From a virus: a stretch of DNA of 64,000 nt. The stretch lies in IMG/VR virus record IMGVR_UViG_3300009103_000701, positions 1-64,000 of that record; one strand, given 5' to 3'. This document shows, piece by piece, positions 24,645-40,298 of this stretch. The translations under genes were made by a program, and so were the position numbers. The notes under the pieces were generated by a model that ran no database searches, had not been told where the DNA came from, and worked only from the letters and a program-made list of their open reading frames with translations. The first letter of the stretch is position 1, and each line of letters starts with the position of its first letter.

Positions 24645-24992
24645 ATGGAAGAAATACAACAAAAAGCCTTGCGACTTGCGGATAGATTAAAAGTCCACAA
24701 TAACCAAACTAGAATACTGAAAGAAAAGTTTGTGGATTCTAATATTCATTTCCTTAAAGGTCACCAATTTACAGTTGATTTAACATTAATCAACTATTGT
24801 AAAGGATTAATAGATTTAAACAAAATTAAAGACGTTATTATATTAGATGATTACAAAATTCCTGTTAAAATAGATAACGTTCAGGACTTTTTTGACGACA
24901 TTTCTGACTTATATCAAAGGAATCTTAATTCTTATTGGGTAGAATACAATAAGTTAGAAAAGTCAAAAGGGGAAATATTAAAGGATGACTAA
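24645..24992 (+). CDS. Hypothetical protein, first gene of the island
   Basis: The protein has 115 residues and I recognise no family. It is mostly helical and charged, with a Lys/Asp-rich middle (INYCKGLIDLNKIKDVIILDD) and two cysteines or fewer. No transmembrane segment is seen. It begins about 15 bp after a consensus -10 box with no clear Shine-Dalgarno, and its stop overlaps the start of the downstream glycosyltransferase-like gene by eight bases, so the two are probably co-expressed. It could be a regulator or a small partner protein of the island enzymes; nothing in the sequence decides this. Confidence 0.55.
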   Translation: MEEIQQKALRLADRLKVHNNQTRILKEKFVDSNIHFLKGHQFTVDLTLINYCKGLIDLNKIKDVIILDDYKIPVKIDNVQDFFDDISDLYQRNLNSYWVEYNKLEKSKGEILKDD

Positions 24993-25842
24993 AGGTGTAT
25001 TACTATTTGCTCATAACAATAGCCTAATAGATTATGTATCGCAGGCAATCTTTTGTTGTGAACAAATTAAAAAACATTTAAACATACCAGTAAGTCTGGT
25101 AACATCAAATAAAGTACCTCCTGATAGTATTTCCTTGTTTGACAAAATCATTCCTATTAAAAACACTAATACAAACCAAACAAAATCATTTCTAGACGGT
25201 TCAACAAACAAATATAATGCTTTATGGCATAACTTTTCAAGACCTGATTGTTATGATTTAACACCATACGATGAAACTATTGTTATGGATACAGATTATA
25301 TTGTAGGTAATGATCATCTATTAAAATGTTTTCAATCAAATGCGGACTTTTTAATTAATAAAGATGCAGAATATATCAATTACCAACATAGAGAGGATTT
25401 ATTAGATATAGATGTAAGTGATCCTAGTATTCCTATGTATTGGGCTACTGTATTTTATTTTAAAAAGACTGATAAAATGAAAACGTTCTTTGAATTAATT
25501 AAACACATTAAAGATAATTGGTCATTTTATAGGTTCACATATCAAATAGTAGGACAGAATTACAGAAATGATCATTCCTTTAGTATTGCTATTCATATGT
25601 TTAATGATTTTCAGGAAACTAACTGGCCCATGAAGCTACCAAGTAAGTTGTATTACATAACTGATAGAGATGAAGTTATTCATTTTGATGGAGATTGGGA
25701 ATTAAAGTTGTCAGTTGATACAAAAGAATACTATCCGTGTAAAATTAATGGTATGAATTTGCATATTATGAATAAGTTGGCGTTAGGACGTGCAATAATG
25801 TATGATCGTTGGATAAAGGAGGATCAACATGATAAAAAATAA
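24985..25842 (+). CDS. Putative GT-A glycosyltransferase (DTD motif), paralogue 1
   Basis: The protein has 285 residues. The N-terminal strand GVLLFAHNN and the motif YDETIVMDTDYIVG, with DTD at 102-104, match the nucleotide-sugar and metal-binding core of GT-A fold enzymes that move a sugar from a nucleotide donor. The next gene shows the same order of motifs (YDETIVLDADML) and is a diverged paralogue. No membrane anchor is visible, so it should act in the host cytoplasm. Acceptor and sugar are unknown. It overlaps both neighbours by a few bases. Confidence 0.6.
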   Translation: MTKGVLLFAHNNSLIDYVSQAIFCCEQIKKHLNIPVSLVTSNKVPPDSISLFDKIIPIKNTNTNQTKSFLDGSTNKYNALWHNFSRPDCYDLTPYDETIVMDTDYIVGNDHLLKCFQSNADFLINKDAEYINYQHREDLLDIDVSDPSIPMYWATVFYFKKTDKMKTFFELIKHIKDNWSFYRFTYQIVGQNYRNDHSFSIAIHMFNDFQETNWPMKLPSKLYYITDRDEVIHFDGDWELKLSVDTKEYYPCKINGMNLHIMNKLALGRAIMYDRWIKEDQHDKK

Positions 25843-26677
25843 AGGGTATCTTATTTTTGTGCAGTCGAATAAAAGTACAGACTACTTTAAACAAGCAGTT
25901 GCATTGTCTATGAGTATAAAATTACATAATAAAAATGCAAATGTATGTTTGATGACTAATATTAGTGTACCTGATGATTTAAAAAAGTATTTTAATAGTA
26001 TTATAGGTATACCAGGAGATGATTATGCGGAAGAAAGCATTTGGAAAGTTGAAAATAGGTGTAAAATTTATAATGCATCACCATATGATGAAACAATAGT
26101 ACTAGATGCTGATATGTTGGTCTTAGAAAACCTGGATCACTGGTGGAAATTTTTAGATAACTTTGATTTATACTTTACATCGCAAGTAAAAACATATAAA
26201 AATAAAATTGCATCATCAGACTTTTATAGAAAAGCATTTACAAAGAATAATTTACCAAATTTATATTGTGGTATGCATTATTTTAAAAAAACAAAAAATA
26301 ACTTTAATTTTTTTGCTTTAGTAGAACATATAATAAAAAATTATGACATATATTACAAAAGATATACTCCTATGAACACACAAAGATGGTGTAGTATGGA
26401 TTTATCGGTAGCAATAGCAAGTCAATTAATCAATAATGCTAATAATATAACTTCTAAAGTAAATTTTTTAACATTTACACATATGAAACCAAATATACAA
26501 AATTGGAAATACAAACCTAATGCTTGGATGTCTTATGTAAACTCTTATTTTGATGATGACTGTAATTTAAAAATAGGAAATTATAAACAAAACGGAATAT
26601 TTCATTATGTAGATCCTGGATTTTTAACAAATGAACTATTTGATAAGTTGGAGAATAAATGCAAAGACCTGATTTAA
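25829..26677 (+). CDS. Putative GT-A glycosyltransferase (DAD motif), paralogue 2
   Basis: The protein has 282 residues. The start is fixed by a perfect AAAGGAGG (25815-25822) six bases upstream, the strongest ribosome-binding site of the island. DAD at residues 93-95 within YDETIVLDADMLVLE is the expected metal-binding motif. Similarity to the preceding gene in length and motif order indicates duplication. A later Trp/Asp-rich segment (QRWCSMDLSVAIA) resembles the C-terminal part of GT8-type enzymes. Donor and acceptor cannot be read from the sequence. Confidence 0.6.
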   Translation: MIKNKGYLIFVQSNKSTDYFKQAVALSMSIKLHNKNANVCLMTNISVPDDLKKYFNSIIGIPGDDYAEESIWKVENRCKIYNASPYDETIVLDADMLVLENLDHWWKFLDNFDLYFTSQVKTYKNKIASSDFYRKAFTKNNLPNLYCGMHYFKKTKNNFNFFALVEHIIKNYDIYYKRYTPMNTQRWCSMDLSVAIASQLINNANNITSKVNFLTFTHMKPNIQNWKYKPNAWMSYVNSYFDDDCNLKIGNYKQNGIFHYVDPGFLTNELFDKLENKCKDLI

Positions 26678-27258
26678 CATTTACGCCTGATATAAAAGAA
26701 CAAAAATGGTATTTTAATTTTAATAAAGATACTGGACAGGTTCTTAATTGTAGTGTCATTAAAAAAGGAAATTCTGTAGAAGTTCCAGAGTCTTTAGGAC
26801 ATGATATTGCTAATGGAGTAAAAAATTTATCGCAATATGTTATAATTTTACAAGATGGAAAGTATATCGTTAAATCTAAAATTGATATGGATGGGATAGC
26901 GTACGAAATTGCGTCTCCTAAAAAGATAGAGAATAGAAATGTATACAAAATAGAGTCTAGTAATATAAATGATAAAATTTCATTTAAACTAGATATGAAA
27001 AATAAACAATGGAGCATAGGTATAAATGATAATTTGGGGCAAGAGATAGAAAATACTTTAGATATGTCAAAAGATATAGTTTTAGATTTTTATGTTACTA
27101 AAAAAGATGATGCTAATATATTAGATTATATATTACCGGTCAATTTAAACAGTTTAATTAAACAAAAAACACTTACAATAGAACATAAAAGTAACAATGT
27201 TCCTTCTTTGTATTGTAGAAAACTTTATGATTATAGTTATGAGGTAGTAAATGGATAG
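26659..27258 (+). CDS. Hypothetical protein between two glycosyltransferase pairs
   Basis: The protein has 199 residues and I do not recognise the family. GGAG lies six bases before the ATG. Sequence is strand-rich with two internally similar halves: KEQKWYFNFNKDTGQVLN near 14 and KNKQWSIGINDNLGQEIE near 114. This suggests a duplicated small beta domain. No signal peptide is present. It overlaps the upstream gene by 19 bases and the downstream one by eight, so it is translationally coupled to glycosyltransferase-like genes on both sides. It might be a binding or scaffold protein, or a substrate; this is inference. Confidence 0.5.
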   Translation: MQRPDLTFTPDIKEQKWYFNFNKDTGQVLNCSVIKKGNSVEVPESLGHDIANGVKNLSQYVIILQDGKYIVKSKIDMDGIAYEIASPKKIENRNVYKIESSNINDKISFKLDMKNKQWSIGINDNLGQEIENTLDMSKDIVLDFYVTKKDDANILDYILPVNLNSLIKQKTLTIEHKSNNVPSLYCRKLYDYSYEVVNG

Positions 27259-28198
27259 AATTAAAATACAAGATTCTGATTTAGTATTTTTAAGTTATGA
27301 TGAGCCTAATGCTGAAAGAAATTATGCGGATTTAAAGAAAAAATTTCCTTGGGCTAAAAGAGTACATGGTGTAAAAGGATTAGATGCGGCTCATAAAGCC
27401 TGTGCAGATGTATCTGATGCAGAAAGATTTGTTACAATAGACGGAGATACTATTGTAGATAAAGATTTCCTTGATGTAGAAATAGATTTAAAAGCATTAG
27501 GCGTTGACAATACGTATATGTTTAGTTGGTGTGGTAACATTGACTTAAATGGATTAAAATATGGCAATGGTAGTTTAAAATTATGGACAAAAGACTTTGT
27601 TAAAAATATGAAAACTCATGAAAACCATGATGGTAAAGATAAAAATTCAGTAGAGTTTTGTCATTTTCCAAACTATTATCAGTTTAATGAAAATTATTCT
27701 ACAAGTTATATTAATGCTAGTCCTTTACAAGCCTGGAGATCGGGTTTTAGAGAAGGAGTAAAGATGAGTATTGACAGAAATGCTAGAGCTCCAAGATTAA
27801 AAGAGTTATGGTGGCAAAATTATCATAGATTGTTAGTGTGGATGTCTGTAGGTGCAGATGTAGAAAATGGATTATGGTCAATATACGGAGCAAGAATGGG
27901 CTGTCATAAAGTTGTTTGTACTGATTGGGATATAAATCAAGTAAGAGATTTTGAATATCTTTTATCTGAATGGCAACCAAATAAAATGGCAAGTACAGAT
28001 CGTTTAGTTGCAAAGAATCCTAAACATTCTAATTTAAATGAAGCAGAATTAATGGCAGAAATAATAAAATTAGGACACGAAATTAGAAATAGAGAAGAAA
28101 TAGATTTACCTGTATTACCTTTGTCAACAGAACAAAGTAAGTTTTTTAAATCTGTTTATATGAATAGTCCAAGAATTTTTAAAAAAAGGAAACTATAA
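27251..28198 (+). CDS. Putative glycosyltransferase-like protein (DGD motif), paralogue 3
   Basis: The protein has 315 residues. A VFLSYDEPNAERNYADL start, RVHGVKGLDAAHKACADV, and FVTIDGDTIVD (DGD at 64-66) form the same motif series as the next gene. This looks like a GT-A-type nucleotide-sugar domain in which the acidic triplet follows a predicted beta strand. The middle has a conserved-looking WRSGFREGVKMS segment, also present downstream. I recall relatives of this kind in other marine phages, where the function is also unknown. Its stop overlaps the next ATG (TAATG). Confidence 0.5.
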   Translation: MDRIKIQDSDLVFLSYDEPNAERNYADLKKKFPWAKRVHGVKGLDAAHKACADVSDAERFVTIDGDTIVDKDFLDVEIDLKALGVDNTYMFSWCGNIDLNGLKYGNGSLKLWTKDFVKNMKTHENHDGKDKNSVEFCHFPNYYQFNENYSTSYINASPLQAWRSGFREGVKMSIDRNARAPRLKELWWQNYHRLLVWMSVGADVENGLWSIYGARMGCHKVVCTDWDINQVRDFEYLLSEWQPNKMASTDRLVAKNPKHSNLNEAELMAEIIKLGHEIRNREEIDLPVLPLSTEQSKFFKSVYMNSPRIFKKRKL

Positions 28199-28878
28199 TG
28201 TATGATATTGTTTTTATAAGTTATAAAGAAGTTAATGCTGATAAGCACTTTAACAAATTATATGATAAGTTTCCTATAGTTCAAAGAGTAGATGGTGTTA
28301 AAGGTATACATCAAGCACATAAAGTAGCCGCAAGTAAATGTTTAACAAAAATGTTTTGGGTAGTTGATGGTGATGCTAAAGTATTAGATGATTTTGATTT
28401 TGGTTTTATGCCTGAAAAAAGAAATGAAAATGTTGTACACGTTTGGAGAAGTAAGAATCCAGTTAATAATTTAGAATATGGATATGGTGGAGTAAAACTT
28501 TTGCCTCGTAGACTAACTTTAGAATTAGATGAAAACACAACTGATATGACAACTAGTATTAGTAATAGATTTAGAGCAATGGAACAAGTATCTAATGTTA
28601 GTATTTTCAATACAAATGAATTTAATACTTGGAAATCAGCATTTAGAGAGTGTGTAAAATTAAGTAGCAAAGTTATTGATAGAGGGGATGATAAAGAAAC
28701 AGATAGTAGATTAAATGTATGGTGCACTGTAGGTAAAGATAAACTTTATGGCGAATATGCAATTAAAGGAGCAATAGCAGGAAAAGAATATGGTTCTGCT
28801 AATAAAGGTAATCAAGAAAAATTAAAATTAATTAATAATTTTGAATGGCTAAAGGAACATTATGACAATACCATTTAA
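28198..28878 (+). CDS. Putative glycosyltransferase-like protein (DGD motif), paralogue 4
   Basis: The protein has 226 residues and is a shorter paralogue of the preceding gene. Shared landmarks are VFISYKEVNADKHFNKL, RVDGVKGIHQAHKVAA, WVVDGDAKVLDDF (DGD at 57-59) and WKSAFRECVKLSS. AAAGGA precedes the TAATG-coupled start. Compared with paralogue 3 it lacks the C-terminal ~90 residues. Glycosyl transfer is inferred from the acidic motif only. Its end overlaps the first radical SAM gene by 17 bases, which ties the sugar-transfer and radical chemistry genes together. Confidence 0.5.
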   Translation: MYDIVFISYKEVNADKHFNKLYDKFPIVQRVDGVKGIHQAHKVAASKCLTKMFWVVDGDAKVLDDFDFGFMPEKRNENVVHVWRSKNPVNNLEYGYGGVKLLPRRLTLELDENTTDMTTSISNRFRAMEQVSNVSIFNTNEFNTWKSAFRECVKLSSKVIDRGDDKETDSRLNVWCTVGKDKLYGEYAIKGAIAGKEYGSANKGNQEKLKLINNFEWLKEHYDNTI

Positions 28879-29821
28879 TGATATAGTTAAATTTGGACAA
28901 AGAACTATGTTAGAACAAAACGTGTTTTCTGTTAGCTGGATTCTTGGAAGATTTTGCAATTATGATTGTAGCTATTGTTGGCCTTATGCTAAAAGTAAAG
29001 TTTTAGATCATAGACCATTAGAACAATATCAAAATACTATGAAAGAAATTAAAAAACAAGCAGGAGAAAATGGATTTAGTAAATTTCATTTTAGTTTTAG
29101 TGGTGGCGAACCAACAACATATAAAGGTTTAATTCAATTATTAGAGTATTATGCAGATCCTACTAGTGAATACCTTAGTTGTCATATGACTAGTAATTGT
29201 AGTCCTGGTCTTAAATGGTGGGGTCGTTGGTTAGATGCAACTTACCCTTTAGATCGTAGAGGTATTACAGCAAGTTATCATGCAGAATTTTCTAACGAAG
29301 AAGACTTTGGAAATAAATTAAAATTTTTACAAGAACGAGGTGTGCTAATAACAATTAATCAAGTTATGGTGCCCGATAGATGGGATGAATATTTTGATAG
29401 ATGTAAAAGATTTAGAGATAAAGGGTTACACGTTACTCTTAAACCTCAAAGTGATACTACAGCAAGTTTTATTGTAGACGGATATACAGAAGAACAAATT
29501 AATATATTGCAAAATGAAATGGATCATGAAGCAAAACAATTAATATTGTTTGATAATTTAGGAAAACAATATGAATTAGATCAAGCAGAAAGACTTAATG
29601 CATTTGGATTTAATAAATTTAAAGGATGGAGTTGTCGTTCTGGTTATCAAAGTTGTATAATTAGAGAACCGGGCGGAGAAGTTAAAAGAGGTTATAGTTG
29701 TCATGATGAACCATTAGGAACTATTGAAGGTGGATTTAAATTGTTTAATAAACCTAAAGTTTGTATAACACCAACGTGTGTAAGTTCAGCAGATTCAAAA
29801 ATACCAAAGGAAAAAATTTAA
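28862..29821 (+). CDS. Radical SAM protein 1 (CxxxCxxC, Cys-rich C-terminus)
   Basis: The protein has 319 residues. CNYDCSYC (C32, C36, C39) binds the [4Fe-4S] cluster that cleaves S-adenosylmethionine, and SFSGGEPTTYKG is the SAM-binding GGEP motif. The C-terminal third has further cysteines (WSCRSGYQSC, YSCHDE, VCITPTC), suggesting an auxiliary SPASM/twitch-like cluster. Such enzymes modify peptides, sugars or other substrates through the 5'-deoxyadenosyl radical. It is closely related in layout to the proteins at 34844 and 35736. The substrate is unknown. Confidence 0.8.
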   Translation: MTIPFNDIVKFGQRTMLEQNVFSVSWILGRFCNYDCSYCWPYAKSKVLDHRPLEQYQNTMKEIKKQAGENGFSKFHFSFSGGEPTTYKGLIQLLEYYADPTSEYLSCHMTSNCSPGLKWWGRWLDATYPLDRRGITASYHAEFSNEEDFGNKLKFLQERGVLITINQVMVPDRWDEYFDRCKRFRDKGLHVTLKPQSDTTASFIVDGYTEEQINILQNEMDHEAKQLILFDNLGKQYELDQAERLNAFGFNKFKGWSCRSGYQSCIIREPGGEVKRGYSCHDEPLGTIEGGFKLFNKPKVCITPTCVSSADSKIPKEKI

Positions 29822-30013
29822 ATGAAACTAGACAATTATAAATGTATAGTAACAAAAGGTAAAAAAGAAGTAGTGTGGCATTATAGCCTACCATATAAAA
29901 TGATATTAAAAGAAGTTGATCAACATTATAAAGAAGGTGCTGACGCAGTAGAATTAGAAATGATTACTCAACAAGAATTTGACGATTTACTACCAAAGGA
30001 AGAAAATGTATAA
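29822..30013 (+). CDS. Small protein (63 aa) between two radical SAM genes
   Basis: The gene begins one base after the upstream radical SAM stop, with an AAGGA ribosome-binding site inside that gene's end, and its stop lies within the start of the next radical SAM gene. The product is a compact alpha/beta-looking peptide (YKCIVTKGKKEVVWHY, then EVDQHYKEGADAVELEM) with a single Cys and an acidic C-terminus. It could be a small binding partner of the radical SAM proteins or a modified substrate. There is no leader-core layout or repeated core residues that would prove a precursor peptide. Confidence 0.55.
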   Translation: MKLDNYKCIVTKGKKEVVWHYSLPYKMILKEVDQHYKEGADAVELEMITQQEFDDLLPKEENV

Positions 30014-30995
30014 TTATTCAGAAATAAAAGATGTGCATTTAGAAATTACTAGCAAATGTCAAGCTAGATGTCCTATGTGTCCTAGAAGAATAGGTGGGGG
30101 TCCTTTAAATCCATTAATACATCTTGTAGAAATTAATTTAGATACATTTAAAAAATGGTTTCCTACAGAATTTTTAATTCAACTAGATAGTTTATTCATG
30201 TGTGGTAATTTAGGAGATCCTATAATTGCACAAGACACATTAGAAATTTATCAGTATATTAGAAGTGTTAATCCAAAAATTAGATTAGCTATGCATACAA
30301 ACGGTAGTGCTAGAGATACAAATTGGTGGCAAGGATTGGCTAAAGAAAAAGTAAAAACAACTTTTGGTATAGATGGATTGGCAGACACTCATCATCTGTA
30401 TCGTGTTTCTACTGATTGGGAAAAAATAATTACAAATGCAAAAACATTTATTAAAGCAGGCGGCTTTGCAAAATGGCATATGTTGGTTTTTAAACATAAC
30501 GAACATCAAGTAGAAGAATGCCAAGCAATGAGTAGGGAATTAGGTTTTAAATCTTTCAGTTATAAACACACATCGAGATTTAAAAGTGATAAATTTCATG
30601 CTATAGATGAAATGGGAAGGACAACGCACATATTAGAACCAAGTAAAAAAAGTTTTGAAATGATAGATAAAATGAAAGAAGCAAAAATAACTTCTTGTAT
30701 CATAGATTGTAAAGCTAAAAAATATAGTCAAATATATATTTCAGCAGATGGTACTGTTAGTCCTTGTTGCTGGTTAGATTTGCAATGGACATTACCTACA
30801 CAAGATTCAAGAGTAGATTACATGGATCAAATAGGAGAATTTACTAATTTGCATAATAAATCTTTAAAAGAAATTTTTGATTCGCAATTTTTTAGAAAAA
30901 TTGAAGATACTTGGGCAGATAAACCTTTAATGGAATGTTCAAAACAATGTGGAAAATTTGATAGATTAGGAGAACAATTTGAAACTCAATATTAA
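30006..30995 (+). CDS. Radical SAM/SPASM-type protein 2
   Basis: The ATG at 30006 is preferred over the upstream TTG because AAAGGA lies just ahead of it. The product has 329 residues. C18, C22 and C25 (ITSKCQARCPMCPRR) form the radical SAM motif. The C-terminal part has ISADGTVSPCCWLD and MECSKQCGKFD, the Cys-rich pattern of a SPASM domain holding auxiliary iron-sulfur clusters. SPASM enzymes often modify peptides or act as dehydrogenases on amino sugars. A SAM-dependent methyltransferase-like gene follows, overlapping by 17 bases. Confidence 0.8.
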   Translation: MYNYSEIKDVHLEITSKCQARCPMCPRRIGGGPLNPLIHLVEINLDTFKKWFPTEFLIQLDSLFMCGNLGDPIIAQDTLEIYQYIRSVNPKIRLAMHTNGSARDTNWWQGLAKEKVKTTFGIDGLADTHHLYRVSTDWEKIITNAKTFIKAGGFAKWHMLVFKHNEHQVEECQAMSRELGFKSFSYKHTSRFKSDKFHAIDEMGRTTHILEPSKKSFEMIDKMKEAKITSCIIDCKAKKYSQIYISADGTVSPCCWLDLQWTLPTQDSRVDYMDQIGEFTNLHNKSLKEIFDSQFFRKIEDTWADKPLMECSKQCGKFDRLGEQFETQY

Positions 30996-31590
30996 AGATG
31001 TGCTGTATTGGATGGATGCTATCCGAGGTTCTGATGACAAATATAAAACGTTAGAAAGTTTTTGGAAAGGACAAATATCTAGTAAAGTTTGGTTAATAGA
31101 ACAACTTAACGAAATAATTAGACCTGTTAATGCAAATGTTCTTGTATGTGGAGGTTGGTATGGAGTAATGGCTACATTATTATTTAATAGTAATATTAAA
31201 GTCAATAATGTTAGAAGTATAGACATTGATCCTGGATGTAAACCAATTGCACTCAATATGAACAAACATTATGAAATTAATGGAAAGTTTAAAGCAGAGA
31301 CTTGTAATATGTTAGATTTTAAAAACTATAATGACTATGATATGATTATTAATACAGTGTGTGAACATATGGCTTGGGATGATTATTATAAATGGTTGGA
31401 TAAAATTCCTAAAGATAGATTAATAATTTTACAAAGTAATAATTTTAAAGAACATAACGAACATATTAGTTGTGTATCTTCAGAAGAAGATTTTAAAAAG
31501 AAATGTGGATTAACTAATATTTTGTATTCAGGTACATTAGAGTTACCTAAATATGAAAGATATATGGTGATAGGAAATAAAAATGTCTGA
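30979..31590 (+). CDS. Class I SAM-dependent methyltransferase-like protein
   Basis: The protein has 203 residues. ANVLVCGGWYG (Gly-rich loop at 56-62) followed by RSIDIDPGC (acidic residue after strand 2, 80-86) is the SAM-binding pattern of Rossmann-fold methyltransferases. MIINTVCEHMAW would be the motif-IV region. The start is probably a TTG at 30979, since AGGAG lies five bases upstream and the next ATG would cut into the N-terminal helix. The acceptor is unknown; its place after radical SAM protein 2 suggests the same substrate. It overlaps the next gene by eight bases. Confidence 0.6.
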   Translation: MKLNIKDVLYWMDAIRGSDDKYKTLESFWKGQISSKVWLIEQLNEIIRPVNANVLVCGGWYGVMATLLFNSNIKVNNVRSIDIDPGCKPIALNMNKHYEINGKFKAETCNMLDFKNYNDYDMIINTVCEHMAWDDYYKWLDKIPKDRLIILQSNNFKEHNEHISCVSSEEDFKKKCGLTNILYSGTLELPKYERYMVIGNKNV

Positions 31591-32242
31591 ACAAGTAACA
31601 CAAGAAGTTATTAATAAATTTATTACTCGTAAATTAGGATGGTTACGATTAGATATAGATTTTCCTGAAATAGAAAAAGAATTAGTTAATGTAGAACCTT
31701 ATTATGTAGAACACAGAGAAGGAGAAAAACATAAAGGTTGGGAAAGTTGTTGTTTACATGGTTTAGATATAGATAAAACATTGGTAGCAAAAGAATATGG
31801 TTATAAAGATGAACTAAATGCTCCTTATAAATGGACAAAATTAAAAAAATTATGTCCTGTAACTACAAAATTTTGGGAGGAGTTTCCTGCGGAAAGATAT
31901 TCTAGAATAAGATTTATGAAATTGCGTCCTGGAGGTACAGTATCTATTCATAATGATCATCCAGGAACTGTAATACCTAAAGATTTAATGAATCATCTTA
32001 TACCAATTAATGTAGCTGTTCAACATCCAGAAGAATGCGTTATGCATATAGAAGATCATGGACACGTTCCGTTTAAAGATAAAAGACTTTATATGGTTAA
32101 TATTTTAAAAAATCATATGGTTACTAATAATTCTATGATAGATAGAATTCATATGATTGCTCAAGTACACGTAGGAAACAAAAGAAAAGAATTTACAGAT
32201 TTAATAACAAGGAGTTGGGACAAGTATGGCGTACAAATTTGA
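31583..32242 (+). CDS. Aspartyl/asparaginyl hydroxylase-like 2OG-Fe(II) oxygenase
   Basis: The protein has 219 residues. RLRPGG-type strand and SIHNDH give the iron ligands H123 and D125, NH at 178 the distal His, and R188 (IDRIHM) the 2-oxoglutarate-binding Arg. This is the jelly-roll pattern of the aspartyl/asparaginyl beta-hydroxylase family. It would hydroxylate an amino-acid side chain or small molecule with O2 and 2-oxoglutarate. TAGGAA precedes the ATG. It overlaps both neighbours, in a run between radical SAM genes. Confidence 0.65.
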   Translation: MSEQVTQEVINKFITRKLGWLRLDIDFPEIEKELVNVEPYYVEHREGEKHKGWESCCLHGLDIDKTLVAKEYGYKDELNAPYKWTKLKKLCPVTTKFWEEFPAERYSRIRFMKLRPGGTVSIHNDHPGTVIPKDLMNHLIPINVAVQHPEECVMHIEDHGHVPFKDKRLYMVNILKNHMVTNNSMIDRIHMIAQVHVGNKRKEFTDLITRSWDKYGVQI

Positions 32243-33596
32243 AGCATTAACAAAAGAGAAATCTAAAATTGTGTTTATTTGTATGGACACAATGTATAAG
32301 ATCCAAAGAACTTGGACTAAAGAATTAATTAAAAATATTGCAGATTATCAAGTGCAAAATATTACTAGTAGTGGTTATGATTTATTAACTGCAATAACAG
32401 AAGAAAATGGTCTAAAACAATGTGAAAAAGATTATACTCACGCAGTAGTTTATACAGTAGATACAGAATTTGAAGGGGATAAATTTTTTACATATTTAGA
32501 AGAATTAGTTAAAACAGATTTCTTTATAGCAGGACATATATTAGATAGAAAAGAAGGATATTATGAACTTCACGAACAATGTTATGTTATTAACTTAAAA
32601 AAATGGGTAGAATATGATTATCCAGATATAGGTGCAGAAGTAGAAAACGAAAAACACTTAAAAGCAGTACCTATTAGAAGTGAAGAAAATTATCATGATA
32701 ATCATACACCACTTTGGATTAAACCTGGTAATGAAATGATAGAGTATAAAGATAAATGGCATGGTTGGAATATACTTAATGTTGCTTTAGATAATGATGA
32801 GGATATAGTAATATTTGATCAAAAAGTAAGAGATAGTAAAAAATGTTATTATGCTGAATATGATTCAGACTTTCAAGAAAATAGTCAAAGAATATATCAA
32901 AAATATAATTTTGCCGCGAACAGACTTTATTATCCTACTAATACAGAAAAATTACAAGATGTTAATATAAAAGGACCTATTTCGCAATTAATTGTTCCTG
33001 CTAGTGGATTTAATTGGTTGTTATATTTAGACAAATATGGACATGATGAAAATACAGAAGTTATATTTTATGATTATAATCCTAATGCATTATGGTATAT
33101 GAAAGAAACAATTAATAAATTTAATGGACATGATTATCATAAATTCTTAAAAGGTCTTATAAAAGATAAAGCACCCGACTGGTTTCAAAGTAAACAAGAA
33201 ATTGTTACTAGGTTTAGTAAAGTTGCTAAACTGTGGCATTTAAAAGATGATATAAAAACGAAATTTATTCAATGTGATTTATTAAATGAATTCAATATAG
33301 ATATTAATAATGATGAAAATACAATTTTTAATATTAGTAATATTTTTGCATACGAACCTACAGTAGCTTTTATTACTGCTAAACAAAGATTAGAAAAGGA
33401 AAACAAATTATTGCGTATATTAAAAGAGAAAAGTCCTAAAATACAATTAGTAGTTTCTGTTCATGCTTGGGATGGTTTGTCAGAATACAAACGACATACA
33501 GGACCGGTAGAAAAATTTGATGAAATGGATCTTGAAGATTTAAAAGCACCGTTATGGAGATTTGGTGAAGATTGGAAAAATTTAGATGAAAAATAA
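32226..33596 (+). CDS. Unknown two-part protein, 456 aa, possible methyltransferase-like C-terminus
   Basis: I do not recognise the family with certainty. AAGGAG lies about 11 bases before the ATG. Residues 1-150 form an alpha/beta part (KIVFICMDTMYKIQRTW, VVYTVDTEFEGDKFF, FFIAGHILDR). After ~240 there is LIVPASGFNWLLYLDKYG followed by EVIFYDYNP, which resembles a degenerate SAM-binding loop and acidic strand 2. Near the end comes LVVSVHAWDGLSEY. No membrane segment is seen. It overlaps the next radical SAM gene by 11 bases. I would treat it as a conserved accessory protein of unknown activity. Confidence 0.5.
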   Translation: MAYKFEALTKEKSKIVFICMDTMYKIQRTWTKELIKNIADYQVQNITSSGYDLLTAITEENGLKQCEKDYTHAVVYTVDTEFEGDKFFTYLEELVKTDFFIAGHILDRKEGYYELHEQCYVINLKKWVEYDYPDIGAEVENEKHLKAVPIRSEENYHDNHTPLWIKPGNEMIEYKDKWHGWNILNVALDNDEDIVIFDQKVRDSKKCYYAEYDSDFQENSQRIYQKYNFAANRLYYPTNTEKLQDVNIKGPISQLIVPASGFNWLLYLDKYGHDENTEVIFYDYNPNALWYMKETINKFNGHDYHKFLKGLIKDKAPDWFQSKQEIVTRFSKVAKLWHLKDDIKTKFIQCDLLNEFNIDINNDENTIFNISNIFAYEPTVAFITAKQRLEKENKLLRILKEKSPKIQLVVSVHAWDGLSEYKRHTGPVEKFDEMDLEDLKAPLWRFGEDWKNLDEK

Positions 33597-34851
33597 AAGT
33601 TGTACGTTTTGTATGCACCCTTTTACAGGTCTTGCTACTAGAGAAGATGGCGCAATTAAAGTATGTTGCAGAAGTCTTCCTATTGGTAATATTAAAAATG
33701 AAACTTTAGAAGAAGCGTGGAATGGTGAAAAAATGCGTGAAGTTAGACGTCAAGTATTAAGCGATGAACGTCCTGACGTATGTAAACCGTGCTTTGATTT
33801 AGAAGATCAAGGAGTACAAAGTTTAAGACAAAGACATATTGCAAATAATATACCAGAATCAAGAGTTAATTTATATCCTGATGCACTTAAAAGCCTTACT
33901 ACAGATATGACAATGCCTTTTGAACTTCCTACAATGGAAATTAAAATTAATAATTTATGTAATTTAAAATGTCGTATGTGTAACCCTTTAGATAGTACAC
34001 AATGGAAAGATTGGAATAGTATTGTAGAACATTATAAAAAGGAAGACAATTACCTTGTTAAAGCAGTAGAAGATTTAGGACTTACAAAAGCACCATATGT
34101 TGGATTGTTTGACGATAAAAAAGAATGGTGGGATAGCTTAAGAAAACTATTACCTCATTTTAAAAGAGTAGAATTTGCAGGTGGAGAACCATTAATGGAT
34201 CCTATGCATTATAAAATTTTAGACCTTCTTAGCGAGAATGGTAAAAATATAGAAATAAAATATGCAACTAATGGTACAGTGTTAGGAATAAAGGGAAGAT
34301 GGATTAAAGACTATTGGCCTAAATTTAAAAGCGTAGCTGTCAATGTTAGTATTGATGGTATAGATGAAGTATATGAATACGTTAGATCCAATGGAAAGTT
34401 TCAAGATGTTGTAGATAATGTTAGAATAATGAAAAATATACCTACAGTAAGTAGAATTGTAGGAGCATTTACAGTACAATCTAATAATATAATGCAGATA
34501 GATAAAGTAATTGATTACTTTTTAAACAAATTAGAAATTGTATTTTATAGTCATAGGGTACAATATCCTAGAGCCTTAAGTGCCCAAGTATTACCTAAAG
34601 AATTAAAAGATAAAGTTATAGCAAAATTAGAATTAATGAAGGACAAAATTAAAGAATATAGGTTAGTTAAAGAACATCCAATATTGGAAAAAATTACATT
34701 ACAACAAATTCAGGATAATATTAATTTTCTTAAAGCAAGAGATTTAAATCAGTATTGGAAAGATTGTGTAGATTTTAATCATAGATTAGATAAAACAAGA
34801 AACCAAGGTCCTTTTGAAAAAATTATTCCGGAGTTTGCTCCATATGTATAG
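33586..34851 (+). CDS. Radical SAM protein 3 with N-terminal Cys (twitch/SPASM-like) domain
   Basis: The protein has 421 residues. An N-terminal Cys domain (SCTFCMHPFTGLA, KVCCRS, VCKPCF) precedes the radical SAM core, where C125, C129 and C132 (NNLCNLKCRMCNP) bind the catalytic cluster and FAGGEPLMD is the SAM motif. In SPASM proteins the Cys domain is usually C-terminal, so this is the permuted layout also seen at 37338-38756. NVSIDGIDEVYEYVR near residue 255 is typical of the barrel. The target is unknown. Confidence 0.8.
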   Translation: MKNKSCTFCMHPFTGLATREDGAIKVCCRSLPIGNIKNETLEEAWNGEKMREVRRQVLSDERPDVCKPCFDLEDQGVQSLRQRHIANNIPESRVNLYPDALKSLTTDMTMPFELPTMEIKINNLCNLKCRMCNPLDSTQWKDWNSIVEHYKKEDNYLVKAVEDLGLTKAPYVGLFDDKKEWWDSLRKLLPHFKRVEFAGGEPLMDPMHYKILDLLSENGKNIEIKYATNGTVLGIKGRWIKDYWPKFKSVAVNVSIDGIDEVYEYVRSNGKFQDVVDNVRIMKNIPTVSRIVGAFTVQSNNIMQIDKVIDYFLNKLEIVFYSHRVQYPRALSAQVLPKELKDKVIAKLELMKDKIKEYRLVKEHPILEKITLQQIQDNINFLKARDLNQYWKDCVDFNHRLDKTRNQGPFEKIIPEFAPYV

Positions 34852-35761
34852 AGTAGAACATTTATATGAAGATGTACGACAAAGTACTAAAATAGAATGG
34901 AACATAGGTAAAAGATGTAACTATGATTGCAGTTATTGTCCTGCAGAAATTCATGACAATTTTAGTGAACATACTGATATTGAAATACTTAAAAATACTG
35001 TAGATGTTATTTCTAAAATGAATAAACCTAGAATAAGTTTTACAGGAGGTGAACCTTGTGTGCATCCAAAATTTACAGAGCTATTAGAATATGCAAAACC
35101 AAAAGTTTCTTGGTTAAATGTAACTACCAACGGTACCAGAACAGCCGAGTATTATCAAAATCTTTTGGACAAATATCTTAACCATATTGTGTTTAGTTTA
35201 CACTTTGAATATGACTGGAATAAAGTTGTAGAAACAATAATAAGGGCAGTTAACAGCTCAGTTAATAAGAATGCTCTTGTACACGTAATGATGCTTCCAG
35301 GCTCGTTAAATGACGTGCAAGACGCTTGTAGACGCCTTTTAAATGGTAATATAAAGTTTAGTTTGCGTCCAATTCGGTGGACCAAAAAGCATGATGATTT
35401 TGAAGACATGAATCGGTATAGTGAAGAAGAAATAAAGTTTTTGAAAATCCAAAATCATAATCCACCACATAATACTTTGGTAGACAAATCCAAAACTTGT
35501 AATGTAAATGATATGTTAATTTTGAAAACTAATAAATTTAAAGGATGGCTTTGTAATGCAGGTTTAGAAAGTTTAATGATTAATTGGGATGGTGATGTAC
35601 ATAGAGCAACTTGTAGAGTAGGAGGAAGTATAGGTAACATTTATAATGGTACGTTTGAAATTCCAAAAGATCCTATTGTGTGTACAAGAGAATGGTGTAC
35701 GTGTGCCGCGGATATAAATTTAACAAAAATAAAAAATGACAATAAACAAAATAACATATAA
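34844..35761 (+). CDS. Radical SAM protein 4 (paralogue of 1 and 5)
   Basis: The ATG at 34844 is chosen because CGGAG (34829-34833) lies ten bases upstream; a longer frame from 34814 would overlap the previous gene further. The product has 305 residues. C25, C29 and C32 (KRCNYDCSYCPAE) and SFTGGEPCVH mark the radical SAM core. The C-terminus shows WLCNAGLE, INWDGDVHRATC and CTREWCTC, a Cys array also present in the next gene. The array probably binds a second cluster. It overlaps its paralogue by 26 bases, a tandem duplication. Confidence 0.8.
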   Translation: MYRVEHLYEDVRQSTKIEWNIGKRCNYDCSYCPAEIHDNFSEHTDIEILKNTVDVISKMNKPRISFTGGEPCVHPKFTELLEYAKPKVSWLNVTTNGTRTAEYYQNLLDKYLNHIVFSLHFEYDWNKVVETIIRAVNSSVNKNALVHVMMLPGSLNDVQDACRRLLNGNIKFSLRPIRWTKKHDDFEDMNRYSEEEIKFLKIQNHNPPHNTLVDKSKTCNVNDMLILKTNKFKGWLCNAGLESLMINWDGDVHRATCRVGGSIGNIYNGTFEIPKDPIVCTREWCTCAADINLTKIKNDNKQNNI

Positions 35762-36716
35762 ATTTCCTCAATTATTAAATGTTCTACAAATAGAATGGAC
35801 TTTAGGTAATACTTGCAATTATAATTGTTCATATTGTTTACCTATATTACATGATAATTCTTTTCCTTGGATTAATTTAGAAAAAAGTAAAAAATTTATA
35901 GACAAATTACATAATCATTATACTGATATGGGTATTACGCATTTTATTTGGAAGTTTGGGGGAGGTGAACCTACTCTTTATAAAGACTTTGCAAAACTAT
36001 GTGAATATATTAATCAACAAGAAAATAATTTAATAATACCTATAACAAATGGTAGTAGAAAAATGGATTGGTGGAAAGATAATTGTAAAAACTTTTTTGC
36101 AGTACATTTTAGTATTCATCCAGAATTTACAAAACCAGAACATATCAGAGACGTATGTGACTTTTTAATAGAAAATAAAGTAGATAGTATTTGTCATATA
36201 ATGATGAAACCCGATGAATGGTCTAAATGTATGGATATAATAGATGTGTTAAAAAATAGCAAAAGAACAGAATGGGGAATCCAAGCTAAACCATTACATC
36301 AAGTTTGGGAAACCGATACTGCAAGTGAAAGAGACTTATATCCTTATACAGAAGAACAAAAACAGATATTTAAAAGTACAATTAGAGCTCAAGAAAGAGT
36401 TAATGAAAAAGTAGATACTAGATTTAATAGAGATATGTATATGGTAGATGATGATCAAACATATGACTTTGACCCATATTGGGCAGTAGCAAATGATATT
36501 GTTGATTGGCGAGGTTATAATTGTAATGCTGGTATAAACAGAATTTATATTAACTTTGATAAACGAATGTATTTAGGAGCAGGTTGTAGAGTTTTATCTG
36601 AAGGTTTTACAGGTAAAAAATATGATGAAGATTTTAATTTTCCAACAACTAGTGTTATTTGTAATCAAGAAAGGTGTGTATGTATAGCGGACATTCAGGT
36701 GCCAAAAATAAGATAG
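35736..36716 (+). CDS. Radical SAM protein 5 (paralogue of 1 and 4)
   Basis: The protein has 326 residues. C27, C31 and C34 (NTCNYNCSYCLP) and KFGGGEPTLY are the radical SAM signatures. The C-terminal array (YNCNAGINR, INFDKRMYLGAGC, CNQERCVC) matches that of the upstream gene in order and spacing, with a longer insert in the middle third. Tandem paralogues of this kind often act on different positions of one substrate, but this is inference. A putative SGNH hydrolase begins inside its last 40 bases. Confidence 0.8.
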   Translation: MTINKITYKFPQLLNVLQIEWTLGNTCNYNCSYCLPILHDNSFPWINLEKSKKFIDKLHNHYTDMGITHFIWKFGGGEPTLYKDFAKLCEYINQQENNLIIPITNGSRKMDWWKDNCKNFFAVHFSIHPEFTKPEHIRDVCDFLIENKVDSICHIMMKPDEWSKCMDIIDVLKNSKRTEWGIQAKPLHQVWETDTASERDLYPYTEEQKQIFKSTIRAQERVNEKVDTRFNRDMYMVDDDQTYDFDPYWAVANDIVDWRGYNCNAGINRIYINFDKRMYLGAGCRVLSEGFTGKKYDEDFNFPTTSVICNQERCVCIADIQVPKIR

Positions 36717-37375
36717 GTTTTTTCGGAGATAGTTTTGTTGCTCATTCTCTTAAAGATAATTGGATGGGTCGAATTGCTGATTCTTTAGATGCAGAAATTG
36801 TGAATACAGGAATTAGTGGTTCAAGTTATTGGACTGCTGTTATGCATTTTACAAAAAACTTTCATAAATTTAAAGATTTAGATTATTGTGTATTTGCTTG
36901 GACTGATCCTTTTAGAATATATCATTCAAAAGGAGATTTTAGTCCACCTAGTGCTTATCAAGGTTCTAGTAAAAGACACAAAGCCGCTCAAATGCATTTT
37001 GAAGAATTAGTAGAGTGGAATAAAGAAAGATTAAATTTTCAAACTGTTGCTTATTGGTTAGACCATGAATACTTGTCTAAAATGAAAGGTAAAATTTTAC
37101 ACTTATGGAGTTTTGGAGATACTAGAGTGGAACCTTGGAGTGACGCAGAACTAGATCAAATTAAGTATTTGTATACTTGGAAATACGGAACAGAAATAAG
37201 AAAACCTTTGTATTATATTAGTTGTAGGACAGATCCAAAAAGAGCTTGGTGCGAAGAAAATTTAAGATTTTTACAAAGTATATTTGCTTTTAGAGTTAAC
37301 CATATGGGACCAGATGGTGACAATGAAGTTTTTAATCTTATAAAAGATGTGATAACTCAGGAAAAATGGATTTAG
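36680..37375 (+). CDS. SGNH/GDSL-like hydrolase 1
   Basis: The ATG at 36680 has AAAGG six bases upstream and is preferred over the earlier GTG. The product has about 231 residues. IGFFGDSFVAH carries the block-I GDS (Ser18), NTGISGSSYW resembles block II, and near the C-terminus RVNHMGPDGDN supplies an Asn-His pair in place of the usual Asp-x-x-His. SGNH enzymes remove or transfer acyl groups, often acetyl groups on glycans. Two further SGNH-like proteins are encoded at 57.5-58.9 kb, and that at 57472 shares the NHxxxxGN ending. The gene runs convergently into the - strand radical SAM gene and overlaps it by 38 bases. Confidence 0.55.
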   Translation: MYSGHSGAKNKIGFFGDSFVAHSLKDNWMGRIADSLDAEIVNTGISGSSYWTAVMHFTKNFHKFKDLDYCVFAWTDPFRIYHSKGDFSPPSAYQGSSKRHKAAQMHFEELVEWNKERLNFQTVAYWLDHEYLSKMKGKILHLWSFGDTRVEPWSDAELDQIKYLYTWKYGTEIRKPLYYISCRTDPKRAWCEENLRFLQSIFAFRVNHMGPDGDNEVFNLIKDVITQEKWI

Positions 37376-38756
37376 CATCTAATCCTCTAATAGCATCTAG
37401 TTTAGTAACATATTCTTTAAAGCCCGGAAGTAAATGACTGTTGTCTTTTTCGTCCATATGTTCCATTACAGCCTCCCAACGTTTCCAACCATAAGGATTA
37501 TGTTTCCAAAACTCATCATCTTGTCTGTAGTTTTTCCATAACCAATCTTTAAATTCTGCAAAACGTTCTCGAACTTCTTGTTTATCTTCTTTAGGTAATA
37601 TTTGAATACTTAAAAATGTTGGTATGTAAAGCAAGTGCATATTAACTAATCCACCACCCATTTGTGTACCACCAGGTACAGTTCCTAAATTAAGTTTTTT
37701 AAATTTAGATTCTACTTTCCATTTCATAAAGTCTGGTAAGTGTTTTACATTAAAAATTTGTATAGCAGTTGCTAAACTTGTTTGTATATTGTCAGGTGTG
37801 TTGTCTAACATACGAAGATTTGTTTCTACGGTATCCCATTTAGTTGGAAAACGTATGTATTCATCTCGCTGATGACTAGCGTCCATACTAATTGCAAATT
37901 TAACTTTTTTAAATTTACTCCATAATTCAATTAAATCTTTATCTACTAATATACCATTTGAATTATATCGTAATAAGATTTTATCTTGGTAACCTTGTCG
38001 TATAATTTCTTCAATAAATGTTTTGTGCTCTTTAATCATTAAAGGTTCTCCACCAGCAAAATAAACTTGTTTTAAATTAGGAATTTGTTTATTCATTTCT
38101 GCCCAAAATGTATCTTTTTCGTGCCACTTGTTATTAAATTCTTGTTTACCCCAAGACATTTGTTTTCTAACTGTTGGTATTGTTAGTTGTGGCATAAGTC
38201 GTTGCCAGTCTGCAACCCATTTAGAACTGTCATGTGGAGAACACATAACACACTTAATATTACAAGTATGTCCTAATCTTAAATCTAAATATCTTAATGT
38301 TTCAGGTACAGTTCCATCTTCTTGTGTTTGTTTTATTAATTCAGGAATATCTACACCATCTTTGTGCCATGTACCGGTTTCCCAAATACGTTTACTAACT
38401 ACTCCTACTTTTTCTTCGTTAAAACATTTAGTACAACTGGCAGGTATTTTTCCAGCTAACATAGTTTTACGAACTGACTTCATATATTCATTATTCCATG
38501 CTTCCATAGGAGCATCTTTTCCAAAGTTTGCAGGTGTGCCGTCTTCTTTTTTAACAAGACCTACTTTATGATCCTTACCTGCTCCACTGGCATTTGCACT
38601 ACAACATAAACGCATATCGCCATTAGGACGTGTAGCAAAGTGAATCCAAGGCAATACACAAAAAGTACAAGAACCACTAACTGATTCTATTTCTCTTTGC
38701 CATTTACCTAATTTAGAATCTTTAGGATTTAACCAATATTCATTACTTTCAGTCAC
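37338..38756 (-). CDS. Radical SAM protein 6 with N-terminal Cys domain
   Basis: The protein has 472 residues and probably starts with GTG at 38756, overlapping the upstream PP-loop gene by eight bases. The N-terminal domain has C30, C33, C51, C52, C108 and C111 (GSCTFCVLPWIHFA, RLCCSANA, CTKCF). The catalytic motif follows at C165, C169 and C172 (GHTCNIKCVMCSP), then FAGGEPLMIKEH. The order is the same as in radical SAM protein 3, so the two are related, though on opposite strands. It pairs with a QueC-like ATPase in a two-gene - strand cassette. Confidence 0.8.
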   Translation of the reverse strand: MTESNEYWLNPKDSKLGKWQREIESVSGSCTFCVLPWIHFATRPNGDMRLCCSANASGAGKDHKVGLVKKEDGTPANFGKDAPMEAWNNEYMKSVRKTMLAGKIPASCTKCFNEEKVGVVSKRIWETGTWHKDGVDIPELIKQTQEDGTVPETLRYLDLRLGHTCNIKCVMCSPHDSSKWVADWQRLMPQLTIPTVRKQMSWGKQEFNNKWHEKDTFWAEMNKQIPNLKQVYFAGGEPLMIKEHKTFIEEIIRQGYQDKILLRYNSNGILVDKDLIELWSKFKKVKFAISMDASHQRDEYIRFPTKWDTVETNLRMLDNTPDNIQTSLATAIQIFNVKHLPDFMKWKVESKFKKLNLGTVPGGTQMGGGLVNMHLLYIPTFLSIQILPKEDKQEVRERFAEFKDWLWKNYRQDDEFWKHNPYGWKRWEAVMEHMDEKDNSHLLPGFKEYVTKLDAIRGLDAKSIFPELSHLL

Positions 38757-39567
38757 TGTTATCTATTCCCCATTGTCTTTCTTTACACCAAAAACATTCA
38801 CCACATACTGGAATGTCTTTGCCTGGAACATATGTTTTATAATCTAGGTCTCCAAATATTTCAGGATAAGTTTCCTTATCACCTTCGCAACTTCTTGTAA
38901 GATTAAACAGATTCATGATGCCTAATCTCTTATATTGAGATACTATCCAATCTTTTTGTACGAAGGTGAAAGGATGACAAGCCACGCCATTCATGTGTGG
39001 CTTTATCAATCGATGTAGATTTTCAACAGTATCATTTGATAATGTACTATCTCTGTCCGTTAATCGGTCATCGAATTTTGTTTCAGGGTTTTTAGTAAGT
39101 CCACAAAACCATGCATCTAGATTATAATTATGACCTATATATTCTGCGTGTGATCTTAACTCAATTTGATTACCGCTTTTTAATTTGCCATATTCATCAA
39201 TAATGTTTGGACCTTTAGAACCCCATTCTAAATCAGGTGCAATAAAATTTGTATGTTCTATAAACTTTATATCTTTAAATGATTCTTTAAACCAAGCAAA
39301 TACTTGTTTAAAAATATGTTGTTGCCAAGGGCGTGTTTTCCATAATCTAACATTATAGATTATGTGTATTTTGGTATAATAATTTTTACGTTTAACTAAA
39401 TCGCATAAGATATATGCCATTAAGGCACTATCACAGCCACCACTAAGACTTATTCCTATATTTTTCCAATTTGGTGATAATGGAAAATATACATCAGATA
39501 TATCGTGGATTATATTTTGGTATTCACTATTCTCGTAGAGACTTTTTACTTTGTTATTCATAGGCAT
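38749..39567 (-). CDS. QueC/ExsB-like PP-loop ATP pyrophosphatase
   Basis: The first ATG is at 39567 (the frame also reads through a TTG at 39570). The product has 272 residues. ISLSGGCDSALMAY at 40-52 is the PP-loop that binds ATP and adenylates a carboxylate. C227, C255, C258 and C261 (CGECFWCKER) form a zinc site like that of QueC, which turns 7-carboxy-7-deazaguanine into preQ0, although the first spacing is 27 residues rather than about eight. It could complete a preQ0 pathway with FolE, QueD-like and QueE in region C. Equally, it could activate a carboxylate for the neighbouring radical SAM chemistry. The specific reaction is not settled. Confidence 0.6.
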   Translation of the reverse strand: MPMNNKVKSLYENSEYQNIIHDISDVYFPLSPNWKNIGISLSGGCDSALMAYILCDLVKRKNYYTKIHIIYNVRLWKTRPWQQHIFKQVFAWFKESFKDIKFIEHTNFIAPDLEWGSKGPNIIDEYGKLKSGNQIELRSHAEYIGHNYNLDAWFCGLTKNPETKFDDRLTDRDSTLSNDTVENLHRLIKPHMNGVACHPFTFVQKDWIVSQYKRLGIMNLFNLTRSCEGDKETYPEIFGDLDYKTYVPGKDIPVCGECFWCKERQWGIDNSD

Positions 39568-39623
39568 CAAATAATACTTATCGTAATTAATTCTCGGGTT
39601 AATTCTTCACGGTAAATATTGGT

Positions 39624-40298
39624 ATGCTTACAAAGACTGGTATAACCCATTCCTCTAAAGAAATATATAATTTGGTAAAACATTTTGGTCCTGGTAAAAA
39701 CGTTTTAAATGAACCTACAGGAGATTTCTTTTATGATGAATGGAAGTTACTTCCTGAATACAAAGGAACTAGTTTAGAAGAGTTATTAACCAAATTAGGA
39801 AAAGTAGGAGAAGCAAGAATAAATGTAATGAAACCAGGAGAGTGTTATACTGCTCATGCTGATATAGATGATCGTTTTCATTTAACATTAAATTCAGAAC
39901 ATAGTTTTTTAACAGATATAATTTGGTCAAAAACTTTTCCTTGTCATGCTGATGATACTGTATATGGAATGGACGCAGGTAGATTACATACTGCAAGTAA
40001 TTATGGATATAAAAATAGATATCAATTAGTTATTAGAAGACTTTTAAATAGAATAGATTTACAAGAACCTGCAGTAATAACTTGTATGGCTCTTCAACCT
40101 ACACCATATAATTTAAGATATCTTTTTGATCGTAGTTTTTCTTGTTTATTAAACAAATTTAATAAGTTAGGAGTTATGACTAATTTTAATAAAGTTAGTG
40201 AAACATCTATTAAGTTTGAAGTTGAATATGAATTTGTACAAGAAGTATTAAAATTAAAAGAAACTTGTGGATTTGGAGTGCTTATAGATTATGATTAA
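39624..40298 (+). CDS. 2OG-Fe(II) oxygenase-like protein (Asp/Asn hydroxylase type) 2
   Basis: The protein has 224 residues. NVMKPGECYTAHADIDDR gives H78 and D80 as iron ligands; RLHTASN gives H122, and R132 (NRYQLVIRR) is the likely 2-oxoglutarate Arg. The spacing of these residues fits the cupin/jelly-roll hydroxylases. The gene is divergent from the PP-loop gene across 56 bases of AT-rich DNA and starts a new + strand run. The last ~80 residues form an extra unknown part. It overlaps the kinase-fold-like gene by eight bases. Confidence 0.55.
   Translation: MLTKTGITHSSKEIYNLVKHFGPGKNVLNEPTGDFFYDEWKLLPEYKGTSLEELLTKLGKVGEARINVMKPGECYTAHADIDDRFHLTLNSEHSFLTDIIWSKTFPCHADDTVYGMDAGRLHTASNYGYKNRYQLVIRRLLNRIDLQEPAVITCMALQPTPYNLRYLFDRSFSCLLNKFNKLGVMTNFNKVSETSIKFEVEYEFVQEVLKLKETCGFGVLIDYD

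Follow-up and report, generated by a model that had tools for sequence, protein, structure and literature searches.

Overlapping radical SAM genes in a phage tail-fibre region encode members of a small enzyme family with an invariant cysteine array and a probable auxiliary iron-sulfur site

The window analysed here, a 64-kb stretch (64,000 nucleotides) of a 71,680-base record of an uncultured marine virus, contains seven radical SAM genes (R1 to R7), and the island that they mark is preceded by baseplate and tail-fibre genes (Table 1). Upstream, a 4890-aa open reading frame (2598-17270) that has an FG-GAP repeat and weakly matches DUF2460 is followed directly by the tail-fibre genes. Searches of Pfam and PDB placed gtC and gtD in no recognised family, MT was without a Pfam match, and the SGNH-type protein matched no family. 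OX1 and the genes at 39624-40298 and 41998-42681 all match the Asp/Arg beta-hydroxylase 2OG-oxygenase family, two of the three below the curated cut-off. The radical SAM protein R7 (44792-45943) carries an HMPTM N-terminal zinc ribbon (PF23545), and its best NCBIfam scores are with the TrsS and Tes models, both below cut-off.

Table 1. Positions of the island genes and cysteine motifs in the window, with supporting evidence.
Feature	Position	Strand	Evidence
gtA + gtB, glycogenin-like (GT8-type) glycosyltransferases	24985..26677	+	profile match to glycogenin structures, best E 6.8e-8
gtC, gtD homologue	27251..28198	+	homology to gtD
gtD, putative glycosyltransferase-like protein, overlaps R3	28198..28878	+	invariant D-x-D
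R3 (P0003), third family member, 4-cysteine array	28862..29821	+	C258, C280, C301, C306 (alignment numbering of the first row) invariant, 51 relatives; Bdellovibrionota chromosomal homologues
R5, radical SAM/SPASM protein, R3's neighbour	30006..30995	+	PF13186 and PF04055 above cut-off
MT, putative methyltransferase of the R3/R5 group	30979..31590	+	R3/R5 neighbour; function by sequence inspection only
OX1, Asp/Arg beta-hydroxylase-family 2OG oxygenase	31583..32242	+	PF05118 E 5e-9
R4, N-twitch radical SAM protein, R1's partner gene	33586..34851	+	NF033640 334 bits, cut-off 170
R1 (P0001), radical SAM enzyme, C-terminal 5-cysteine array, 305 aa	34844..35761	+	Pfam Radical_SAM E 1.3e-14; AlphaFold2 mean pLDDT 92.5
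R1 radical-SAM cluster motif CNYDCSYC	34916..34939	+	C25, C29, C32 invariant, 52 relatives
R1 C-terminal array domain	35525..35734	+	C237, C257, C280, C285, C287
R2 (P0002), radical SAM enzyme, C-terminal 5-cysteine array, 326 aa	35736..36716	+	Pfam Radical_SAM E 7.6e-9; AlphaFold2 mean pLDDT 92.2
R2 radical-SAM cluster motif CNYNCSYC	35814..35837	+	C27, C31, C34 invariant, 63 relatives
R2 C-terminal array domain	36495..36713	+	C263, C284, C309, C314, C316
SGNH-type protein, after R2 in this lineage	36674..37375	+	invariant GDS motif; downstream of R2 in 11/89
R6, N-twitch radical SAM protein, usual partner gene of R2-type genes	37338..38756	-	NF033640 396 bits
PP-loop (QueC-like) protein, often upstream of R4	38749..39570	-	invariant SGG.DS and C..C..C; directly upstream of R4 in 32/66

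R1 and R2 overlap by exactly 26 bases, as the original prediction had it, and its description of a common C-terminal layout (R1 CNAGLESLMINWDGDVHRATC...C....C.C; R2 CNAGINRIYINFDKRMYLGAGC...C....C.C) and of a related array in R3 is likewise correct, the R3 array reading C...C...C....C with the final cysteine of the C.C element missing (CVSSAD). All three proteins show the features of the radical SAM superfamily, a Radical_SAM core (PF04055) above cut-off together with the CX3CX2C motif, and the motif cysteines are intact in their relatives in the viral-contig alignments. That the three constitute one small family is agreed upon by alignment (collinear, with pairwise identities of 24-28%, and 26% for R1 and R2), by BLASTP (E of 6e-28, 7e-27 and 2e-22, with alignments spanning almost the whole proteins) and by comparison of whole profiles, which joins them over 275-291 columns with a probability of 99.9-100%. 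Matches of these profiles to R4, R5, R6 and R7 are shorter and weaker, and R4 pairs with R6. The likeness among R1, R2 and R3 exceeds chance. The R1 profile also has a fourth, weak match (E 4.3e-5) at 56238-56525 on the minus strand, within a 288-aa open frame.

The array cysteines are fully conserved (100%) among relatives taken from viral contigs, with 5/5 positions invariant in R1 (51 sequences), 5/5 in R2 (63 sequences, a label that spans sequences down to ~25% identity with R2 of the window) and 4/4 in R3 (51 sequences). They are spaced C-x19/20-C-x22/24-C-x4-C-x-C, and the array domains of the three proteins match one another with 97.6-99.7% probability in profile comparison. The C-terminal extension is confidently predicted in the AlphaFold2 models of R1 and R2, for which the nearest solved folds (CteB, BlsE, anSME, EpeE, SkfB and MoaA; Foldseek, TM ~0.5) are mostly auxiliary-cluster enzymes. 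Known radical SAM enzymes hold auxiliary clusters in C-terminal extensions (PMC9012708). An invariant array on a confidently predicted extension supports, at the level of prediction, the auxiliary iron-sulfur site that had been thought probable for this family, and R1 and R2 are very probably radical SAM enzymes with one C-terminal auxiliary iron-sulfur cluster each, held by the array. The invariance and position of the array, together with known biology (PMC9012708), make one auxiliary [4Fe-4S] cluster per protein the most likely reading, while the five cysteines of R1 and R2, one above the need of a single cluster, count against it. An array that is purely structural, binding zinc or forming disulfides, would fit the lack of the fifth cysteine in R3, and no cluster has been observed; however, four array cysteines are invariant across all three groups and sit on the radical SAM C-terminal extension, the site of auxiliary clusters in known enzymes (PMC9012708), so that a structural role is very improbable.

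The domain was also compared with auxiliary-cluster domains already described. BtrN, MoaA and SpeY (twitch) and BlsE resemble R1 and R2 in having a radical SAM core and a short C-terminal extension in which one auxiliary cluster is expected, and three of the four (BlsE, MoaA and SpeY) rank high among the structural matches of R2; the array spacing differs, though, the TM is just ~0.5, and the twitch/SPASM domains tested gave no significant profile match. Measured against the definition of a twitch domain, the cysteine layout and C-terminal extension fit, and the profile matches to neighbouring twitch/SPASM domains are not significant. The SPASM enzymes CteB, anSME, SkfB and SuiB are among the best Foldseek matches of R1, but a full SPASM domain has seven cysteines and the array four to five. 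Pfam SPASM (PF13186) was unmatched in R1, R2 and R3, as it was in all of the 63 R2 relatives with E values as high as 10 allowed. Within the island, the NF033640 proteins R4 and R6 also combine a radical SAM core with an auxiliary-cluster-type domain, whereas the array domain is usually C-terminal and its homology to theirs is undetectable: no significant profile alignment was obtained between the array domain and the SPASM/twitch parts of R4, R5 and R6. A PDB sequence search with the array alone returned nothing convincing, and the array domain appears unmatched in the libraries searched here (Pfam and solved-structure sequences).

Viperin, STM4011, MoaA, QueE and NF033640 were considered as the subfamily of R1, R2 and R3 and rejected, with scores far under the cut-offs. 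The three proteins score 58.8, 45.7 and 40.1 bits against viperin NF038283 (cut-off 180), at best 50.7 bits against STM4011 NF038073 (cut-off 200), and 24.8 (R2) and 33.1 bits (R3) against NF033640 (cut-off 170), which is not among the best 25 families listed for R1. The STM4011 and viperin families are among the best NCBIfam scores of R1, all below curated cut-offs, and the viperin match covers the core only.

Although mostly C-terminal, the array domain is N-terminal in some phage and bacterial relatives. One Bacteriovoracaceae protein with an N-terminal array (L246:7488-8723) adjoins a 643-aa R1-like protein whose N-terminal part is without a Pfam match. Two bacterial proteins of ~655 aa (L351:7203-9167 and L351:13755-15722) contain two array domains each, with a radical SAM motif in the first half and apparently none in the second.

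Gene order was counted over distinct proteins in viral loci picked by an R1, R2 or R3 match, which are therefore no random sample of phages. R4 and R1, which overlap by 8 bases in the window, form the most regular arrangement: R1 is immediately preceded by a same-strand R4 in 74/75 cases, 82% of them overlapping. R6 stands directly upstream of R2-type genes in 60/93 cases, all overlapping, and R1 occupies that position on the same strand in only 12/93. The pairing of R4 with R1 is thus far better conserved than that of R1 with R2. In related phages the usual order is R4>R1 convergent with R6>R2, the tandem R1>R2 being a minority arrangement, and the window is an exception in that R2 comes after R1 and not after R6. 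R1 and the R2-type genes typically come second in a two-gene unit that opens with the gene for an N-twitch radical SAM protein (R4 or R6, respectively). R3 has neighbours of its own, with gtD directly upstream in 52/84 cases and R5 or MT directly after it in 92/111; R5 is directly downstream in 48/111 and upstream in 17/84.

The partners R4 and R1, and R6 and the R2-type proteins, would probably form a complex or act successively on the same substrate. In thuricin CD biosynthesis two radical SAM enzymes, TrnC and TrnD, work on peptides as a tight complex (PMC12093266), which offers an analogy for the pairs described here and is not evidence for them. Co-location in a phage host-recognition region can also reflect accretion in place of a pathway.

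The original prediction further held that R1 and R2 arose by duplication inside one island and perform successive reactions on one substrate. The tree, the synteny and the identity all speak against such a duplication. In the careful tree R1 forms one clade (97/99) and R2 of the window groups with R6-adjacent R2 sequences (96/93); the R1 side of the tree includes a Bdellovibrionia sequence (93/78), the R2 side one from Bacteriovoracaceae (94/86). With the two genes in different, old clades and bacterial relatives on either side, local duplication is unsupported. Forcing R1 together with three window-type R2 sequences gave p = 0.037 in an AU test on a quick tree, which is mild support because the constrained group was named after the data had been seen. 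A tandem pair acting in sequence on one substrate would account for the 26-base overlap in the window and for the 12 same-strand R1>R2 cases in relatives, and comparable pairs exist elsewhere: Acidobacteriota have two array genes in tandem (L247, L250), L248 has a fused pair, a phage (L131) and a bacterial locus (L350) combine a C-type with an N-type array gene, and in Campylobacter phage CP21 two array proteins are neighbours. Against it stand the separate clades, the frequently convergent R1 and R2 of relatives (40/80) with their different upstream partners, and an R1-R2 identity of just 26%. Tandem duplication was rejected on the tree, synteny and identity, and the sequential tandem pair as a whole is quite unlikely.

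Five island families, gtD, R3, R5, R6 and MT, have homologues that recur on chromosomes of Bdellovibrionota, though the subset and the order vary. On a 936-kb contig of a Bdellovibrionia MAG, ~27 kb contain ~13 radical SAM genes, and all five families have homologues there; a phage-integrase-family gene past this island (L328:12755-13864) suggests a nearby mobile element. At E below 1e-30, R3 homologues were detected in 15/144 genomes of the class of this MAG, in 6/129 genomes of the class of a Bacteriovoracaceae MAG (Bdellovibrionota) and in 0/147 genomes of one Acidobacteriota class, these being minimum counts because genome completeness is not given. Eight further regions (Table 2) contain R3 and R5 in 8/8, R6 in 7/8, MT in 4/8 and gtD in 2/8; none has all five families, and order and strand differ. 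These recurrences would be consistent with a core of the families shared between bacteria and phage. In the R3 tree, phage and bacterial sequences are cleanly split (100/100), which gives no hint of recent exchange within this sample.

Table 2. Order of matched genes along eight bacterial regions (<, minus strand; several regions stop at contig edges).
Region	Gene order
L335	gtD, R6, R3, R5
L336	R3<, R5<, MT; R6 and gtD not found within the 20 kb read
L337	gtC, gtD, R6, R5<, R3< (transcription: R3, then R5)
L338	MT<, R6<, R5<, R3<, two further R4/R6-like, one R1-like
L339, L340	R3, R6, R5<
L341	R5, R1-like, R5, R5<, R3, MT, R6, R5<, two R6-like
L342	MT<, R6<, R5<, R3<

In bacteria, too, array-bearing genes come after an R6-like gene (L338, L349, L353 and L357). 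At L349:7256-12022 array-type and twitch-type radical SAM genes alternate, two of the junctions having 4-base overlaps. Loci from Acidobacteriota, Myxococcota and Oligoflexia (L247, L248, L250, L251) hold two array-type radical SAM genes each, fused in L248, near a small protein that looks secreted and whose C-terminal motif is similar. A literature search for this cluster in Bdellovibrio turned up nothing relevant, judged by titles and abstracts.

Among phages, the 15 large-relative records have 4-16 radical SAM matches each. The lineage is called T4-like because 9/15 of these relatives carry a T4-type Gp23 capsid; a jumbo-myophage lineage, considered for the ~32% identity of the baseplate protein to jumbo myophages, was set aside on that ground. 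Phages with many radical SAM genes have been reported earlier (PMC5332604, PMC2853527), among them Campylobacter phages CP220, CPt10 and CP21 with about a dozen (PMC2853527). In the isolated phage CP21, CP21_027 ends with a comparable array and has a tail-fibre gene nearby, as in the window, and CP21 proteins are among the best BFVD matches of R1 (TM 0.72), but the CP21 array proteins are only ~17-18% identical. The stretch adjacent to CP21_027 is also array-terminated, with an in-frame stop near the start in the frame read. Pelagimyophages have a host-recognition cluster, according to the accessible part of its description, in which a hypervariable tail-fibre region holds glycosyltransferases and radical SAM cassettes (PMC7029224); the island of the window likewise follows baseplate and tail-fibre genes, and that part of the account describes no array family, cysteine domain or pairing.

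The glycogenin-like gtA and gtB of the island and the surroundings of the bacterial relatives bear on the substrate. In L351 array-bearing genes have asparagine synthase, GT2 and carbamoyltransferase genes nearby, in L357 a carbamoyltransferase and in L354 and L355 GT2 genes, and L353 encodes a fusion of R5-like and gtD-like parts. Across ~240 viral loci no widely conserved small ORF stands beside the radical SAM genes; a 63-aa ORF between R3 and R5 (29822-30013) occurs in 33 loci as only four distinct, closely related sequences. A RiPP maturase system with a nearby precursor was rejected for want of a widely conserved small ORF, a distant or unusual precursor being still possible. The glycan genes near bacterial relatives and the lack of a widespread small ORF thus favour, and do not show, a glycan substrate over a RiPP, a preference read from gene content. 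A carbohydrate or glycoconjugate from the island glycosyltransferases, bound for the host surface or virion, is a substrate for which the case falls a little short of even. The CX3CX2C cluster could then, as a tentative scheme, generate a 5'-deoxyadenosyl radical to abstract hydrogen from the substrate, with the auxiliary cluster accepting or relaying an electron, in an oxidation or epimerisation. Taken whole, the explanation that we prefer, although with somewhat less than even confidence, is that partnered radical enzymes tailor a surface or virion glycoconjugate.

A protein or peptide target, either a tail-fibre residue or a RiPP-like precursor, would suit the nearest solved folds of R1, which are mostly peptide or protein modifiers (CteB, anSME, EpeE, SkfB, SuiB), the tail and tail-fibre genes that adjoin the island and the precedent of the peptide-acting TrnC/TrnD complex (PMC12093266). 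It is nevertheless unlikely, as the radical SAM genes have no widely conserved small ORF beside them, the 63-aa ORF at 29822 is confined to close relatives, and the bacterial contexts have glycan genes with no evident precursor. The weakly QueC-like PP-loop protein and the presence of MoaA, viperin and QueE-like proteins among distant matches could point to a modified nucleotide or hypermodified DNA base, but the QueE, MoaA and viperin models never score over cut-off and the island sits in the tail-fibre region, away from replication genes, which makes such a product hardly probable.

Returning to the glycoconjugate reading, a broader and doubtful extension of it would make the island a phage form of a multi-enzyme radical SAM pathway that Bdellovibrionota also have. 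A movable (C- or N-terminal), previously unmodelled auxiliary-cluster domain would then distinguish one of the two enzymes in every module, and the modules would jointly install an undescribed surface or virion glycan modification. Radical SAM gene clusters of phages have been noted for more than a decade without an established function, as far as the accessible parts of these reports go (PMC2853527, PMC5332604, PMC7029224). They are now given a defined enzyme family, a library-unmatched domain and a strong partner rule, and the bacterial counterparts mean that the pathway could be tested beyond an uncultured virus. If confirmed, the reading would tie oxygen-sensitive radical chemistry to the host-recognition regions of phages.
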